A DNA stretch of 64,000 bases from Hyphomicrobiales bacterium. GTDB lineage: Bacteria > Pseudomonadota > Alphaproteobacteria > Rhizobiales > Beijerinckiaceae. The DNA lies in contig CAKNFP010000001.1 of NCBI GenBank assembly GCA_930633525.1, positions 3,347,501 to 3,411,500 of the forward strand, given 5' to 3'. Below are positions 26,052 through 30,847 of this stretch, one piece after another (position 1 is the first letter of the stretch; each line of letters opens with the position of its first letter). The position numbers were made by a program, and so were the translations under genes. The notes under the pieces were generated by a model. It worked only from the letters and a program-made list of their open reading frames with translations, searched no databases and was not told where the DNA came from.

Positions 26052-26786
26052 TCAGTAAGGCGGTCGCGGGATTGCCATATGCGCGGCCTTCAGGGCATCG
26101 GACCAGCGCTGGCTAAGATCCGTGAAATAAGGCTCGCCAGCCTCGATCCGGTGCGATAGCCCCGTGACGTGGGAACCTCGCCGGATCATCAGAAGATCGA
26201 TCGGCAACCCCACTGCGAGATTCGAGCGCATGGTGGAATCCATCGAGATCAGCCCGATCTTCAGAGCGTCATAGATATCGGTCTCGAAGGTGATGGCGCG
26301 ATCAAGGATCGGCTTGCCGTATTTGTGCTCGCCGATCTGCAGGAAAGGCGCGTCAACGCCGCACTCAATGAAATTGCCGGCGGAATAGACCATGTACAGC
26401 GTCATCGGCCCGCCCTTGATCTGTCCTCCGAACAGGAAGGCGGCGTCGAACGAGAGCTGGGCCTCTCCCAGCGCCTCGCCGATCTCGTGACGCACCTGCC
26501 GGACGGCATGGCCGACGAGTTGCGCGGCATGGAACATGGTCGGCGCATCGATCAGCTTCTCGCGTATCTCGCCACCAGGGACGGTGACGCCTTCGCGCAG
26601 GAGGCCGAGCACGGATTGCGAAATGGAGAGATTGCCGGCGGTCGCGATGCCAAGCACCCGCTCGCCAGGGACCTCGATCACATGCAGCTTGCGAAAAGTC
26701 GAGATATTGTCGAACCCGGCATTGGTGCGGGTGTCAGCGATGAGAACGAGCCCGTCCTGGACCAGAATACCAGCACAATAGGTCAT
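26052..26786 (-). CDS. Anbu proteasome-like peptidase
   Basis: A 244-residue Ntn-hydrolase of the Anbu (ancestral beta subunit) family, related to HslV and proteasome beta subunits. The start gives MTYCAGILVQDGLVLIADTR: removal of Met exposes Thr1, the expected nucleophile; the ADTRTNAGFDNIS block matches Anbu. Published structures show Anbu forming open helical or ring-like assemblies of uncertain activity. An ATG three codons upstream (26795) is closer to a GGAG site, so a four-residue propeptide is possible. It is the last gene of a minus-strand operon with ATP-grasp, alpha-E and transglutaminase-like genes, the conserved Anbu setting. Confidence 0.92.
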   Translation of the reverse strand: MTYCAGILVQDGLVLIADTRTNAGFDNISTFRKLHVIEVPGERVLGIATAGNLSISQSVLGLLREGVTVPGGEIREKLIDAPTMFHAAQLVGHAVRQVRHEIGEALGEAQLSFDAAFLFGGQIKGGPMTLYMVYSAGNFIECGVDAPFLQIGEHKYGKPILDRAITFETDIYDALKIGLISMDSTMRSNLAVGLPIDLLMIRRGSHVTGLSHRIEAGEPYFTDLSQRWSDALKAAHMAIPRPPY

Positions 26787-26844
26787 CAGGCGCATCTACT
26801 CCGCAAAGGCCGTCTTTTTCTATGGGCTGGATCAGACAGACACT

Positions 26845-27675
26845 TCAAGCCTGAGCCTGCCATTGGGCGGCCTTCTGCACAGTGAGTTTGACATCCATGC
26901 GTTCCTCGCCGCCGCCATAGCGGCTGCCACGCACGGGGGCGGCGCCGAGATAATCGAGACCGATGGCGACACGCACGTGGGCATCGGTGGGGCTTATGCC
27001 ATTGGCGGGATCGAAGCCGACCCAGCCCAAGTCGGGAACCTTGGCTTCAACCCAGGCATGGGCGGCGTCCTGCACCGTCACCCCATCATTGCGCATGAAA
27101 TGTCCCGAGACATAGCGGGCGGGAATACCGAGATGGCGCGCCGCCGCGATGAAGATATGGCTCAGGTCCTGGCATACGCCGCGCCGCAGCGCGAAGGCCT
27201 CGGCGGCCGTGGTGGTGACCTCGGTGGGGTGCGGATCAAATGCGATGTCGCGATGGATGCCGTTGAGCAGGCCGTGCAACAGCGACAGGCTGTCGGTCCC
27301 GTGGTCCGCCAGGAGCCCGTCGGCAAAATCGCGGATGGCGCTGTCAGCTTCCGTCAATGGTGTGGTCCGCAGATAGACGGCATCGGGAAAACGCTCGACC
27401 GTGCCGCGGATGACGCCTTGGGTGTCGACCGTCTCAACCTCACCGTTCACGGAGACCGTTACGCCCTTGAGCGGGCCCGCAACAGACAGGGTATGCGTGA
27501 TATTGCCGAGTGAATCTTCGCCCAATCGCAGCCGGCCGTCGACATCGACCTCCACCCGCCAGCGCATGACACGCATGCCTTCATGGGAGCGAGGCGTCAG
27601 TCGCAGGATCTGGACCACCGCGCGCGCCGGAATGGCATAGGCATAGGTCGTGTCGTGAGCGATGGAGATGCGCAT
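26845..27675 (-). CDS. Transglutaminase-like cysteine protease of the Anbu operon
   Basis: A 276-residue protein with a transglutaminase-like (papain fold) domain. The triad is visible: Cys168 in RRGVCQDLSH, His206 in DAAHAWVEAKVP and Asp222 in GFDPANG. Residues 1-100 form the beta-rich N-terminal domain (bacterial transglutaminase-like N) opening with ISIAHDTTYAYA. These proteins are thought to act as peptidases or amidases and not as cross-linkers. The gene lies between the alpha-E and Anbu genes. I chose the ATG at 27675, where family similarity begins; longer starts up to 27786 add nonconserved residues. Confidence 0.92.
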   Translation of the reverse strand: MRISIAHDTTYAYAIPARAVVQILRLTPRSHEGMRVMRWRVEVDVDGRLRLGEDSLGNITHTLSVAGPLKGVTVSVNGEVETVDTQGVIRGTVERFPDAVYLRTTPLTEADSAIRDFADGLLADHGTDSLSLLHGLLNGIHRDIAFDPHPTEVTTTAAEAFALRRGVCQDLSHIFIAAARHLGIPARYVSGHFMRNDGVTVQDAAHAWVEAKVPDLGWVGFDPANGISPTDAHVRVAIGLDYLGAAPVRGSRYGGGEERMDVKLTVQKAAQWQAQA

Positions 27676-27857
27676 CGGGTTCGGCCGATCTTCGTCACGG
27701 GCGGCAAAGAGACTTAAGCCGTCATTGTAGAATGGGAAGCGCCTCATTGTGAAGGCCGGCAGAGAAAGCGGGAGCACGAGCCGCACAGCACCCGCCGGCC
27801 CGTTCTCCCGTCCTCAACGCTCCTTCCCGAACGATCTCACATCCCGAGACCACGCGG

Positions 27858-28799
27858 TCACGACAAGTATTGGTCGGCGATCGCCGCGCCGAGCTTGTTG
27901 TTTTCAGCCAGGAAGTTCGTGATGAACTCATGCAGTCCGGACTGGAAGATATCCTCGGTCCGCATATTGCTGAGTTTCGTCAGCATGCTCCCCGCGACGC
28001 GCTGGCTGGCACCACGCCGGCCGTAGGAATCGGCCATGAGATCCACATGGCGAACGATGGCATCATAGCAATAGATGAGCGAGCGGGGCATCTGACGGTT
28101 GAGAATGAGCAGATCGGCAACGAGCCACGGCTTTACGCTCTCCCGATAGACCCAGCGATAGGAGGTGAGCGCCGAAACCTCGCGCAAGATGGTCGTCCAT
28201 TGAAAATAGTCGAGGCTGCCGCCGACCTGTTCGCTCTCCGGCAAAAGCACATGGTACTTCACGTCGAGGATGCGGGCCGTATTGTCCGCGCGCTCCAGCG
28301 CCGAGCCGACGCGCAGGAACCAATAGGCGTCGCTACGCAGCATGGTGCGATAGGCGGAACCATCGAAAGCGAGCGCCACCCCCTTCACCCAGTCGAGGAA
28401 GCGCGCGAAGTCGTCCGGGGCCATAGATTTGCTGTCGAACTTCTGCAGCTCATGCCAGGCGTCGTTGATCGCCTCCCACATCTCCACGGTCAGCGCGGTC
28501 CGCACGGCGCGCGCATTGGCGCGGGCCACCGCAAGGCAGGAGCGAATGGAGGACGGGTTGTCAGCACTGAATGCGAGAAACTCCCGCACCGTGAATTCGT
28601 TGGCGACGTCATAGCGCATGCGGAACGCCTGCGCCGCGCCTGCCGTCGCCAGCGCGCTGTCCCACTCCGTACCCGTCGCGCCATAACTGACTGGCACGGA
28701 GGTCAGCCGCATGGTGGCATCGAGGATCCGGGCCAGAAAATCGGCGCGCTCGATATAGCGTGCCGTCCAGAACAGGTTGTCGGCGGTGCGGGACAACAT
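27858..28799 (-). CDS. Alpha-E domain protein of the Anbu operon
   Basis: A 313-residue, almost entirely helical protein of the alpha-E family, opening with MLSRTADNLFWTARYIERADF, the standard start of the family. No enzyme activity is known; the family is always linked to the circularly permuted ATP-grasp and transglutaminase-like proteins. AAGG lies about 9 bases before the ATG at 28799. An alternative ATG at 28901 overlaps the ATP-grasp stop codon (ATGCATGA), which would couple translation and add 34 residues; I cannot rule this out. Confidence 0.88.
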   Translation of the reverse strand: MLSRTADNLFWTARYIERADFLARILDATMRLTSVPVSYGATGTEWDSALATAGAAQAFRMRYDVANEFTVREFLAFSADNPSSIRSCLAVARANARAVRTALTVEMWEAINDAWHELQKFDSKSMAPDDFARFLDWVKGVALAFDGSAYRTMLRSDAYWFLRVGSALERADNTARILDVKYHVLLPESEQVGGSLDYFQWTTILREVSALTSYRWVYRESVKPWLVADLLILNRQMPRSLIYCYDAIVRHVDLMADSYGRRGASQRVAGSMLTKLSNMRTEDIFQSGLHEFITNFLAENNKLGAAIADQYLS

Positions 28800-28893
28800 G
28801 GGCGGAACCTTGTTGCGCTGGGCACGCAGATAGGCCATCGGCCTCGCCACGCCTGGCTCATTCGCGAGCTGCCTCACGGAGGAGGTATCGGAG

Positions 28894-30324
28894 TCATGCA
28901 TCGAGCACCCATGTGTCTTTGGTGCCGCCGCCCTGGCTGGAATTGACGACGAGCGATCCTTCCTTCAGCGCGACACGGGTAAGGCCGCCCGGCACGATAC
29001 GAACCCCGTCCGTGCCGGTGAGCACGAAGGGGCGGAGATCGATGTGGCGCGGGGCAACGCCCGAGGCCACGAAGGTCGGGCAGGTGGACAAAGCGAGCGT
29101 CGGCTGCGCGATGAAGTTGTCGGGCGCATGTTTCAGCTTGCGTCGGAAGAGATCGAGTTCCTTGCTCGACGCATGCGGCCCCACGAGCATGCCGTAGCCA
29201 CCCGAACCGTTGACCTCCTTCACCACGAGTTCACCGAGGTGGTCGAGCACGTAGGACAAGGCCTCCTTCTCCCGGCAGCGCCACGTCGGGACATTCCCGA
29301 GGATGGGTTCCTCGCCGAGGAAAAAACGGATGATCTCCGGCATGTAGCTGTAGATCGCCTTGTCGTCCGCGACGCCGGTGCCGACCGCATTCGCGAGCGT
29401 CACATTGCCCGCTTCGTAAGCGCTCATCAGCCCCGGCACGCCGAGGATGGAGTCGGGCCGGAACACGAGCGGATCCAGAAAATCATCATCGATGCGGCGA
29501 TAGATGACATCGACGCGCTTCGGCCCGTCGGTCGTGCGCATGTAGACGATATCGTCGGTGACGAAGAGATCGGAGCCCTCGACGAGTTCCACGCCCAGCT
29601 TGTCTGCCAGGAAGGAGTGCTCGTAGAAGGCCGAATTGAACTGGCCGGGGGTCAGCAGCACCACCGTCGGATCCCGCCCGGCGCTGGTCGGCGCGACGGA
29701 ACGCATGCTGGCCAGCAGGGCATCCGGATAGGTCTCGACCGGCGCCACCCGATGCGCGGTAAAGAGGTTGGGGAAGAGCCGCATCATCACTTCCCGGTTC
29801 TCCAGCATGTAGGAGACACCGGACGGCGTGCGCACATTGTCCTCGAGAACGTAGAACGTGCCTTCATCCACACGCACGAGGTCTATCCCCGCCATATGGA
29901 CGTAAATGCCATGCGGCACAGGCCGGCCGACCATCTCCAGCCGGTAGTAGGGATTGCGATAGACGAGTTCGGCAGGCACCACGCCCGCCTTGATGCTCTC
30001 CCTCGGGCCATAGACATCGCGGAGAAACGCATTGAGGGCGTTGACGCGCTGGCGCAGGCCTCGCTCGACCCCCTCCCACTCCTTCTTCACGAGAACGCGC
30101 GGGATGATGTCGAATGGGATGAGCCGCTCGCTCATTTCCGCCTCGCCATAGACGGCGAAGGTTATGCCGATGCGGCGAAAAAACAGCTCTGCCTGGCTGC
30201 GGCGGGTCGCGAGGAGATCGGCCGGGGTATCCTCAAGCCAGGTCCTTAATCGCTCATAGGCGACGCGAACATTCGTTTCCCCGGTGTGCGTGGTGAAACC
30301 ATGCATCTCGTCGAAGGCCGTCAT
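28894..30324 (-). CDS. Circularly permuted type 2 ATP-grasp protein
   Basis: A 476-residue predicted amide-bond ligase with the ATP-grasp domain permuted. Conserved blocks are DEMHGF near the N terminus, the YVLEDNVRTPSGVSYMLENR segment (about residues 158-177), and the C-terminal KEVNGSGGYGMLVGP glycine-rich nucleotide loop. Comparative genomics has predicted that such enzymes make peptide-like tags together with alpha-E and transglutaminase-like partners; no substrate is established. It is the first gene of the operon. I chose the ATG at 30324 with GGAGGG about 9 bases upstream; the frame is open further back to 30573 but not conserved. Confidence 0.92.
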   Translation of the reverse strand: MTAFDEMHGFTTHTGETNVRVAYERLRTWLEDTPADLLATRRSQAELFFRRIGITFAVYGEAEMSERLIPFDIIPRVLVKKEWEGVERGLRQRVNALNAFLRDVYGPRESIKAGVVPAELVYRNPYYRLEMVGRPVPHGIYVHMAGIDLVRVDEGTFYVLEDNVRTPSGVSYMLENREVMMRLFPNLFTAHRVAPVETYPDALLASMRSVAPTSAGRDPTVVLLTPGQFNSAFYEHSFLADKLGVELVEGSDLFVTDDIVYMRTTDGPKRVDVIYRRIDDDFLDPLVFRPDSILGVPGLMSAYEAGNVTLANAVGTGVADDKAIYSYMPEIIRFFLGEEPILGNVPTWRCREKEALSYVLDHLGELVVKEVNGSGGYGMLVGPHASSKELDLFRRKLKHAPDNFIAQPTLALSTCPTFVASGVAPRHIDLRPFVLTGTDGVRIVPGGLTRVALKEGSLVVNSSQGGGTKDTWVLDA

Positions 30325-30847
30325 TGGGATCGCCCTCCGTTTTATGGCAGCCGACTGGCTTGCCCCCACGATAGGGTTTTGCAATGCGCGTGCCAACAGT
30401 CGCATCGCGGGCATCGCCTGAAAGACCCAAGGGTCCCGCAAATTGGGCAGGAGCTGTGATTGGCTAATAAATAGGCAATTAGACGAACGTGCTGATCGCT
30501 CAGGCAATTGCGAGCTTCTGGAGGGGCCGCAGCCGCTGGGGAGCCCCACCCGACCTCGCTGACGCGAGGCCACCCTTCCCTTTGGTGGAGTCCCCCTTGT
30601 GGGAGGGATCGGCGCGGCCCTTCCGGGAGATTCCTAGTCTGATTACTGCCGTTGCTGGCACCTGATCAGCGTACACAAGCGGAGATTTTGAAAGCTCAGC
30701 GCCAGCCACCGCAATCCCTCCCCCTTGGGGGAGGGTGGCCTCGCGTCAGCGAGGTCGTGTGGGGTCACGGGATCAGGATCGATGCTCTGGCGGCCATGAT
30801 TGTGTTTTTGTTGTCCTCTGGCTGAGAGACCAAGACGCAACCCACCG
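30325..30847. other. Intergenic region carrying inverted repeats
   Basis: This 523-base gap lies between the Anbu operon start and the end of the oligopeptidase gene. It contains the promoter region of the operon, an AT-rich block near 30440-30490, and two opposed copies of an intergenic repeat (30541-30606 and 30709-30770). No gene seen. Confidence 0.5.
30551..30757. repeat. Inverted pair of a Rhizobiales intergenic repeat
   Basis: A perfect 26-base inverted repeat: 30551-30576 and 30732-30757. Each arm contains the inner palindrome CCTCGCTGACGCGAGG and is flanked by CCCTCCCCC-type sequence, giving two similar elements in opposite orientation about 155 bases apart. Similar palindromic elements are frequent between genes in many Rhizobiales genomes. 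The pair could fold into a large cruciform or stop transcription. Confidence 0.8.

Follow-up and report, generated by a model that had tools for sequence, protein, structure and literature searches.

The window analysed here, a 64,000-nucleotide stretch of the genome of a Chelatococcus bacterium, contains at positions 26052–30324 an Anbu operon in its known gene order, with four minus-strand genes that open reading frames and Pfam and PDB matches identify as an ATP-grasp enzyme, an alpha-E protein, a transglutaminase-like protein (TG) and Anbu. Anbu is a relative of the proteasome and was described in 2008. The Pfam and PDB matches along this interval bear out the gene set, order and strand given in the preliminary description of the locus:

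28894..30324, minus strand, circularly permuted ATP-grasp enzyme (476 aa, ATG start; PF14403, PF04174, PDB 3n6x)
27858..28901, minus strand, alpha-E protein (347 aa; PF04168)
26845..27675, minus strand, TG (276 aa, ATG at 27675; PF08379, PF01841)
26052..26786, minus strand, Anbu (244 aa, second ATG; PDB Anbu matches)

The ATP-grasp and alpha-E genes overlap by 8 nt, and gaps of 182 and 58 nt separate alpha-E from TG and TG from Anbu, respectively. No terminator-like site was found on the minus strand in either gap; the 182-nt gap holds a sigma70-like match (27753–27724), and terminator-like and sigma70-like matches occur at about the frequency seen in shuffles (2 versus 1.1 and 4 versus 2.9).

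The comparison of gene order across Hyphomicrobiales that the preliminary description had proposed found all four genes in the same order and on the same strand in 72 of 80 loci, the remaining eight being truncated by the contig start (six) or having Anbu alone visible (two), and a phylum-wide sample had this arrangement in 85 of 120 loci. As the order is kept in so many loci, it is non-random. Alpha-E was also present in 158 of the 161 Anbu-bearing genomes among 397 searched.

Gene starts and conserved residues

The ATP-grasp enzyme matches CP_ATPgrasp_2 (PF14403) with 558 bits and PF04174 with 515 bits, and the only solved ATP-grasp that it matched is PDB 3n6x (664 bits, E 1e-198). Its glycine-rich loop (VKEVNGSGGYGMLVG) is intact, as had been described, and K369 and G375–G378 (GGYG) are conserved in 168–169 of 170 rows. 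Alpha-E matches PF04168 with 314 bits and found no better than E 0.95 among PDB sequences; of its motif E203-R204-x-D206, the glutamate is present in 183/183 rows and the arginine and aspartate in 181/183.

TG combines the Bact_transglu_N and Transglut_core domains (PF08379 and PF01841). It starts at the ATG at 27675 rather than the GTG at 27786, with ATG, GTG or TTG found at the former position in 189 of 195 rows (one of them a copy of the window's own sequence). Counted from this start, the numbering of the Cys168-His206-Asp222 triad in the preliminary description is right, and the window's TG keeps all three residues.

Anbu scores under the cut-off for Pfam PF00227. In the PDB it matches five sequences, of which three carry the name Anbu and two the name Peptidase (5loy, 5nyj, 5nyf, 5lox and 5nyw; E 1.7e-78 to 2.3e-58). 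The match to these solved chains is near full length; of an Anbu protein one would further expect a split-ring dodecamer and a hydrolytic activity. Two in-frame ATG codons lie at its start, the first at 26795 and the second, followed by ACC, at 26786. Because a start codon immediately precedes residue 1 in all 227 distinct Anbu sequences, the window's included, we place the predicted start at 26786, from which removal of the initiator Met would expose Thr1 with no intervening propeptide. The earlier statement that the N terminus exposes Thr1 thus stands for translation from the second ATG and falls for the first. Thr1 also survives in relatives (Thr in 226 and Ser in one of the 227 sequences), and the preliminary description had treated its loss there as evidence against the proposed system. 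Asp17 and Lys32, both present in the window, are conserved in 230/230 rows. By the available parts of the published accounts, P. aeruginosa Anbu likewise has no propeptide and exposes Thr1 on Met removal (PMC5666114), and a Yersinia bercovieri operon, also consisting of ATP-grasp, alpha-E, TG and Anbu, encodes an Anbu that shares Thr1, Asp17 and Lys32(33) with the window's (PMC6376114). The Y. bercovieri ATP-grasp released phosphate from ATP, peptidase or amidase activity was not detected for Anbu of Y. bercovieri, Hyphomicrobium or P. aeruginosa, and neither a specific nor a stable complex of the operon proteins was reported; the passages of that paper drawn on here contain no promoter data.

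The region upstream of the operon

Three sites on the minus strand stand out upstream of the ATP-grasp gene:

30380..30396, minus strand, sigma54 -24/-12 promoter box TTGGCACGCGCATTGCA (consensus match, conserved in Chelatococcus)
30461..30477, minus strand, imperfect dyad TGCCTATTTATTAGCCA, candidate NtrC site (second conserved block of the four-genome alignment)
30490..30506, minus strand, TGCCTGAGCGATCAGCA, a TGC-N11-GCA dyad and further candidate NtrC site (lying 111 nt upstream of the sigma54 box)

The TGG of the sigma54 box begins 71 nt before the start codon of the ATP-grasp gene; the box matches TGGCACGNNNNTTGCW exactly, as nothing else in the window does (0.02 matches expected). It is identical in four Chelatococcus genomes, including the window's, in which the stretch between box and start codon is kept and most of the upstream sequence has diverged. 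Across the wider set, TGGC-N7-TTGC occurs at -150 to -30 of 51 of 166 ATP-grasp genes, compared to none of 168 alpha-E, 172 TG and 200 Anbu genes and 17 of 3,320 shuffles; no box of this form lies upstream of the other 115 ATP-grasp genes. Under less strict criteria applied earlier, 10 of the 12 box positions were also matched by 7 of 77 TG upstream regions. The operon promoter resembles one for nitrogen starvation, and its -24/-12 element is one that an NtrC/sigma54 nitrogen regulon would call for. The first reading of the window had missed both this box and the loss of TG Cys168 described below.

Both of the window's dyads are imperfect. C. asaccharovorans has TGCCTAATTTTTAGGCG aligned to TGCCTATTTATTAGCCA, and the TGCCTGAGCGATCAGCA site stays TGC-N11-GCA in the three other Chelatococcus genomes and not in this one. 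The same pattern is found upstream of 103 of 166 ATP-grasp genes against 24 expected, compared to 11/168 for alpha-E (20.9 expected) and 17/172 for TG (22.5 expected), and among 4-base inverted repeats with spacers of 0–15, TGCC-N9-GGCA has the biggest excess (42/166 versus 6/340). Sites of this class also lie upstream of dusB-ntrB in one genome (G285, L254) and of glnK in another (G122, L258). The strict dyad pattern with one mismatch allowed has no match in the window's genome, and a one-mismatch scan of seven genomes returned 13 sites off the operon; since a backward control returned 10, most of these may be due to chance. As a class, the TGC-N11-GCA dyad is probably NtrC's; the window's copies are candidate sites.

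The promoter would extend to Chelatococcus the nitrogen control already published for Pseudomonas putida, where PP_2685-2688 also unite a proteasome-like beta subunit, a TG and a circularly permuted ATP-grasp in one operon. In the portions of the source papers used here, nitrogen limitation induces that operon, whose control is ascribed to NtrB/NtrC (PMC7801951, PMC8050072), and PP_2687 is given as hypothetical, so that we infer its identity as alpha-E; expression of the Chelatococcus operon, by comparison, is predicted from its promoter alone. Nitrogen limitation raises PP_2686-2688 11- to 37-fold, and the Anbu gene changes 1.1- to 4.8-fold (PMC7801951), 11- and 4-fold (PMC3325844) or by log2 4.4 on nitrate versus ammonium (PMC8050072). 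A promoter derived from the region before the P. putida Anbu gene was nitrogen-agnostic (PMC8050072), and a passage of PMC5666114 that names no species describes operon gene expression as unchanged across various conditions. In B. cenocepacia, the cluster I35_5080-83 (DUF404/407, DUF403, TG and large TG) requires NtrC and sigma54; its ATP-grasp, alpha-E and TG genes are related to those of the window, but PMC5491218 names no proteasome-like gene in it and there is a second, large TG instead. A survey of the sigma54 regulon lists COG3484, and the part of it consulted gives no operon-level promoter anatomy, dyads or box-less lineages.

Loss of the TG cysteine

Of 193 distinct TGs, 139 have Cys168, the window's among them, and the other 54, all from Hyphomicrobiales near the window, carry Pro, Ala, Gly or Ser in its place with the operon kept. 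Loss of a triad residue from close relatives that keep the operon is what the preliminary description had named as refuting its proposal, and the need for an intact triad that it implied is not supported. His206 is absent in one and Asp222 in none of the 193. Operons with Cys-less TGs retain Thr1, Asp17 and Lys32 of Anbu (56/56), the ATP-grasp loop (51/51) and the alpha-E ER-D motif (52/52) in the scorable rows, and, judged by these residues, the chemistry of ATP-grasp and Anbu is near invariant.

The Cys-less TG and its operon remain under purifying selection, somewhat weaker on TG than on its neighbours. By dN/dS, none of the four genes is less constrained than TG, which has median values of 0.28 and 0.21 in two Cys-less groups (ATP-grasp 0.085 and 0.07) and 0.23 in the Cys-bearing group (ATP-grasp 0.14). 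The ratio of TG to ATP-grasp is thus about 3 in the former and 1.6 in the latter, and this wider gap indicates that some relaxation accompanies the loss.

A live though doubtful explanation is that the Cys-less TG is redundant and on its way out, the enzyme being supplied by a second related locus, which encodes a fused ATP-grasp/alpha-E protein of about 850 aa and, in some relatives, has further TG genes nearby. The raised dN/dS ratio fits this, and so do the alpha-E genes, of which each of the 35 Cys-less genomes tested has two or more; the cysteine is kept in all four genomes that have a single one (the window's, L002, L038 and L075). Yet 11 genomes with at least two alpha-E genes keep it too, the dN/dS of Cys-less TGs is far below 1 and near that of Cys-bearing ones, His206 and Asp222 are retained in 56 of 56 Cys-less rows, and the replacements persist over whole clades of Bosea and Methylobacterium. 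That the cysteine is lost while the operon stays selected argues that cysteine catalysis by TG is dispensable, at least where the second locus exists.

It is somewhat unlikely, if conceivable, that in Hyphomicrobiales near Chelatococcus TG has repeatedly turned into a non-cysteine protein (a pseudoenzyme or a His/Asp-only hydrolase) still needed by the operon, whose core would be a make-and-break amide cycle of ATP-grasp and Anbu under NtrC, with TG as a substrate-binding partner and not a tag transferase. We lowered our estimate of this reading because Cys-less TGs evolve faster relative to their neighbours.

Possible roles of the operon

The explanation that we favour, tentatively and as quite possible, is a nitrogen-starvation operon switched by NtrC, in Chelatococcus through sigma54, that runs an amide-bond cycle with TG as an auxiliary. 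Nitrogen starvation would lead NtrC to switch the operon on; ATP-grasp, helped by alpha-E, would spend ATP to link an amine with a carboxylate; and Anbu, as an N-terminal-Thr hydrolase of proteasome fold, would cut that amide bond or a related one and send the building block back to the nitrogen pool. TG would bind the peptide or conjugate. In most lineages it may additionally act as a cysteine amidase or transferase, a step that several Chelatococcus relatives would have abandoned. To the anatomy, the residue and promoter conservation and the cysteine loss under continued selection observed here, this explanation adds parts that we infer, namely NtrC as regulator, the amide cycle, the helper role of alpha-E and TG as a binding partner.

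In glutathionylspermidine synthetase, an ATP-grasp-type synthetase occurs together with a papain-like amidase. A small-molecule cycle of this kind, in which ATP-grasp makes a nitrogen-storing amide or gamma-glutamyl conjugate for hydrolysis by the papain-like TG and Anbu in nitrogen starvation, would suit the nitrogen-type promoter and the deposition of 3n6x as 'Putative glutathionylspermidine synthase', although that name is an annotation and not an assay. Ntn-hydrolases acting on non-peptide amides are known, according to the part of PMC6376114 used here; we nevertheless consider such a cycle unlikely, as low-molecular-weight amides leave a proteasome-type oligomer unexplained.

The operon agrees with the set for which the relevant passages of PMC5666114 and PMC6376114 predict a role in peptide synthesis, tagging or degradation, as the preliminary description had it. 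A scheme in which ATP-grasp synthesises a peptide tag, TG attaches it to proteins by acyl transfer and Anbu degrades these or removes the tag is distinctly unlikely: the gene set and order, with two amide-bond-forming families beside a proteasome homologue (same passages), and Cys168 in 139 of the TGs speak for it, but the 54 TGs without Cys168 in otherwise intact operons imply that cysteine chemistry is not obligatory everywhere, three Methylobacterium TGs (L025, L026 and L035) have no cysteine at all, and a common small tag gene was not noticed, unsystematically, in the compared loci.

The four-gene operon itself is a regular Anbu operon of a known kind, to which the promoter and the TG cysteine loss are what is added. 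The promoter is the best available clue to the purpose of the operon and tells when to look for Anbu in alphaproteobacteria, that is, in nitrogen starvation. The natural Cys-less operons set the lasting chemistry (ATP-grasp and Anbu Thr1) apart from the losable (TG Cys168). Such a division is not a prediction of the tagging model, and it narrows how the Anbu system can work. Together, promoter and Cys-less operons make Anbu function open to direct genetic test.

Operon anatomy and conservation of the gene set

The four genes lie on the minus strand, and the outer coordinates in the preliminary description were correct:

28894–30324, minus strand, ATP-grasp
27858–28901, minus strand, alpha-E
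26845–27675, minus strand, transglutaminase-like protein (TG)
26052–26786, minus strand, Anbu

The ATP-grasp and alpha-E genes overlap by 8 nt, and gaps of 182 and 58 nt separate alpha-E from TG and TG from Anbu, respectively. A sigma70-like match (TTCACA-18-TACAAT, 27753–27724, minus strand) falls within the 182-nt gap before TG; matches of this kind show no excess over shuffles. Three of the four genes have strong Pfam family matches; Anbu scores under the Pfam proteasome cut-off. Five PDB sequences match it, three under the name Anbu and two under Peptidase, and one of the five, 5lox, is the Anbu structure reported in PMC5666114. With 97% identity to unclassified Chelatococcus proteins, this Anbu places the window in a Chelatococcus.

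TG starts at ATG 27675; 189 of 195 rows (aligned sequences, some repeated) have one of the codons ATG, GTG and TTG there. Anbu has two in-frame ATGs, at 26795 and 26786. The codon just before residue 1 is ATG, GTG or TTG in all 230 rows (227 distinct sequences, window included: ATG 184, GTG 29, TTG 14), and such codons account for only 9% over residues 2–60 in the same comparison; therefore, a protein translated from 26786 would expose Thr1 once its Met is removed, as was shown for P. aeruginosa Anbu (PMC5666114). The earlier proposal of an exposed Thr1 is thus borne out by sequence for a start at 26786, with a start codon at −1 in 227/227 distinct sequences. Residue 1 is Thr in 226 of these and Ser in one (locus L133 of genome G022, with an MSYC start and normal operon order), and Asp17 and Lys32 are invariant (230/230 rows).

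Of 318 Hyphomicrobiales loci, we took the best 80. All four genes occur in the same order and strand at 72 of these; six others are truncated at the start of a contig, and in two Anbu alone is visible. Phylum-wide, gene order is kept in 85/120 loci excised around Anbu, and Anbu is the only one of the four visible in 27/150, six of these with just 1.5 kb of flank. Among 397 Pseudomonadota genomes, 161 carry Anbu and 232 alpha-E, and 158 of the 161 Anbu-bearing genomes also have alpha-E (odds ratio 115, uncorrected for kinship). At the loci of the remaining three (L218, L220 and L221 in G094, G248 and G339, one genus) Anbu is kept, and neither alpha-E nor CP_ATPgrasp_2 was found genome-wide; in this genus Anbu persists in the absence of the genes that normally accompany it.

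Other arrangements were also seen. In two genomes of family f46 (L157, L166), a solitary Anbu follows mutS, at distances of 35 and about 500 nt and in the same orientation, with ATP-grasp and alpha-E elsewhere in the genome. Three Bradyrhizobium loci (L065, L071, L072) carry opposite-strand genes in the TG–Anbu gap, including an SBP_bac_5 peptide-type solute-binding protein in 3/3. At L178 (2198-5236), opposite-strand genes lie between TG and ATP-grasp, one with an RVT_1 reverse transcriptase domain (39 bits).

Loss of the TG cysteine in Hyphomicrobiales

We aligned 195 TG rows with the window sequence. At position 168, the cysteine of the candidate Cys168-His206-Asp222 triad, 140 of the 196 rows have Cys, 22 Pro, 18 Ala, 15 Gly and one Ser (for the 193 distinct sequences, counting the window, 139, 21, 18, 14 and 1), and His206 and Asp222 are retained in 195/196 and 196/196. 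GVCQD becomes GIPQD, GIAQD or GVGQD, and the motif is clear in most Cys-less cases; in Alsobacter L046 and L056/L060 its surroundings are also altered and the alignment is less certain. Three TGs from Methylobacterium (L025, L026, L035) are entirely free of cysteine.

Judged by record title, every Cys-less TG comes from Hyphomicrobiales (Bosea and allies, most Methylobacterium, Salinarimonas, Alsobacter, Rhizobiales 65-9 and two MAGs), and the loss was not found in any of 93 phylum-wide TGs. Two of 16 rows named Methylobacterium keep Cys, and one Pro row so named groups inside the Bosea clade. A tree built from ATP-grasp, alpha-E and Anbu (157 rows, LG+G4, short search) requires at least four Cys/non-Cys changes and at least nine residue changes. 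We found no report of Cys-less TG in the open-access literature searched.

The rest of the Cys-less operons is intact: Anbu T1/D17/K32 in 56/56 rows (two repeating others), the ATP-grasp loop in 51/51 and the alpha-E ER-D motif in 52/52. Median pairwise dN/dS for TG is 0.28 in Cys-less Bosea, 0.21 in Methylobacterium and 0.23 in Cys-bearing Bradyrhizobium and kin, and for ATP-grasp 0.085, 0.070 and 0.138 in Bosea, Methylobacterium and Bradyrhizobium and kin; therefore, TG is still constrained, yet looser relative to ATP-grasp in the Cys-less groups. One Cys-less TG from Bosea is still recognised by both Pfam families, and the first Foldseek match of its model (mean pLDDT 77) is the bacterial transglutaminase-like 3isr (E 3e-18); it is thus predicted to keep the transglutaminase-like fold minus the nucleophile.

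We counted alpha-E copies in the genomes of 49 of the 72 loci and in the window's own genome. All 35 Cys-less genomes tested have two or more, as do 11 Cys-bearing ones, and the four single-alpha-E genomes keep TG Cys (Fisher 0.006, uncorrected for kinship), so a second locus possibly provides partial backup for a Cys-less TG. The window's genome has one alpha-E gene only. It also has two more tandem transglutaminase-like genes (L232:5280-6347 and L232:6417-7280, the second judged from sequence); no ORF for ATP-grasp or alpha-E was seen next to this pair.

Sequences upstream of ATP-grasp

Upstream of ATP-grasp lies a promoter element:

30380–30396, perfect sigma54 box (one match in the window, 0.02 expected)

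In four Chelatococcus genomes, the stretch from ACTGTTGGCACGCGCATTGCAAAAC through the ATP-grasp ATG is nearly identical and the upstream sequence has diverged, with a second conserved block, TTGCCTAWTTWTTA, about 80 nt further upstream. Just upstream of the promoter, at 30543–30582, some 38 bp of GC-rich sequence contain a perfect inverted repeat (CCTCGCGTCAGCGAGG) and have many dispersed matches (79–97% identity) in each of four Chelatococcus genomes, a REP-like repeat family.

TGGC-N7-TTGC occurs at −150 to −30 of 51/166 ATP-grasp genes (Hyphomicrobiales 36/70, phylum 15/96), and of 0/168 alpha-E, 0/172 TG and 0/200 Anbu genes (shuffles 0.5%). A scan for at least 10/12 positions in the phylum set gave 19/96, 0/96, 3/94 and 3/120 for ATP-grasp, alpha-E, TG and Anbu (shuffles about 2%), and a looser scan of the Hyphomicrobiales set 20/69, 0/72, 7/77 and 0/80. 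The TGGC-N7-TTGC box is seen in Chelatococcus, Methylobacterium, Bradyrhizobium, Rhodopseudomonas and Afipia and in families f9, f34, f39, f47, f58, f69 and f73, with a single case in f17 (at a guess, Rhodobacteraceae), and is absent before ATP-grasp in Bosea and families f3, f13 and f18. Bosea loci (for example L005, L008, L013) have no sigma54 box, and most have a dyad at −100 to −105; their conserved block CCCTTCCCGAAC ... GCATAGGCT before the start may represent a promoter for a different sigma type.

The dyad TGC-N11-GCA lies within 300 nt upstream of ATP-grasp at 103/166 loci versus 24 expected from shuffles (36/53 loci with a box, scored by a slightly wider box pattern, and 67/113 without one), and is not in excess before alpha-E (11/168) or TG (17/172). 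Among 4-base inverted repeats with spacers of 0–15, TGCC-N9-GGCA has the largest excess (42/166 versus 6/340 control regions). Across five genomes, the strict form TGCCTWAWNWTWAGGCA has a single copy in three, located at the Anbu operon, no copy in a fourth and two copies in G285, at the Anbu operon and before dusB-ntrB (ntrB read from sequence). When one mismatch is allowed, 20 sites are found in seven genomes: seven at the Anbu operon and 13 elsewhere, versus 10 in a backward control. We inspected the nearest long ORFs for 10 of these 13. They include the dusB-ntrB site and a site 202 nt before glnK that is accompanied by a sigma54-like sequence; near the other inspected sites, no nitrogen gene was recognised. 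NtrC is therefore the likely candidate owner of the dyad. NtrC of Rhodobacterales and Caulobacter lacks the sigma54-contact loop and acts on sigma70 promoters (PMC10274813), and such an NtrC could explain dyads lacking a box.

P. putida PP_2685-2688 is induced by nitrogen limitation, with NtrB/NtrC the likely regulator (PMC7801951, PMC8050072, PMC3325844), although the effect size for Anbu disagrees among these reports; a promoter from directly before Anbu is nitrogen-agnostic (PMC8050072). COG3484 appears in a sigma54-regulon survey (PMC12316311), and a related B. cenocepacia cluster depends on NtrC and sigma54 (PMC5491218). The regulation found here is, so, an extension of known facts to Hyphomicrobiales.

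A candidate role for the operon

The least variable parts are the ATP-grasp active site, the alpha-E ER-D motif and Anbu Thr1-Asp17-Lys32; the losable part is the TG nucleophile. The assays of PMC6376114 found no Anbu activity. For these bacteria, sequence comparison weakens a model requiring TG to transfer a tag. The simplest reading is that ATP-grasp and Anbu would form a make-and-break amide cycle during nitrogen starvation, with TG serving as a binding partner and, in most lineages, also as an enzyme.
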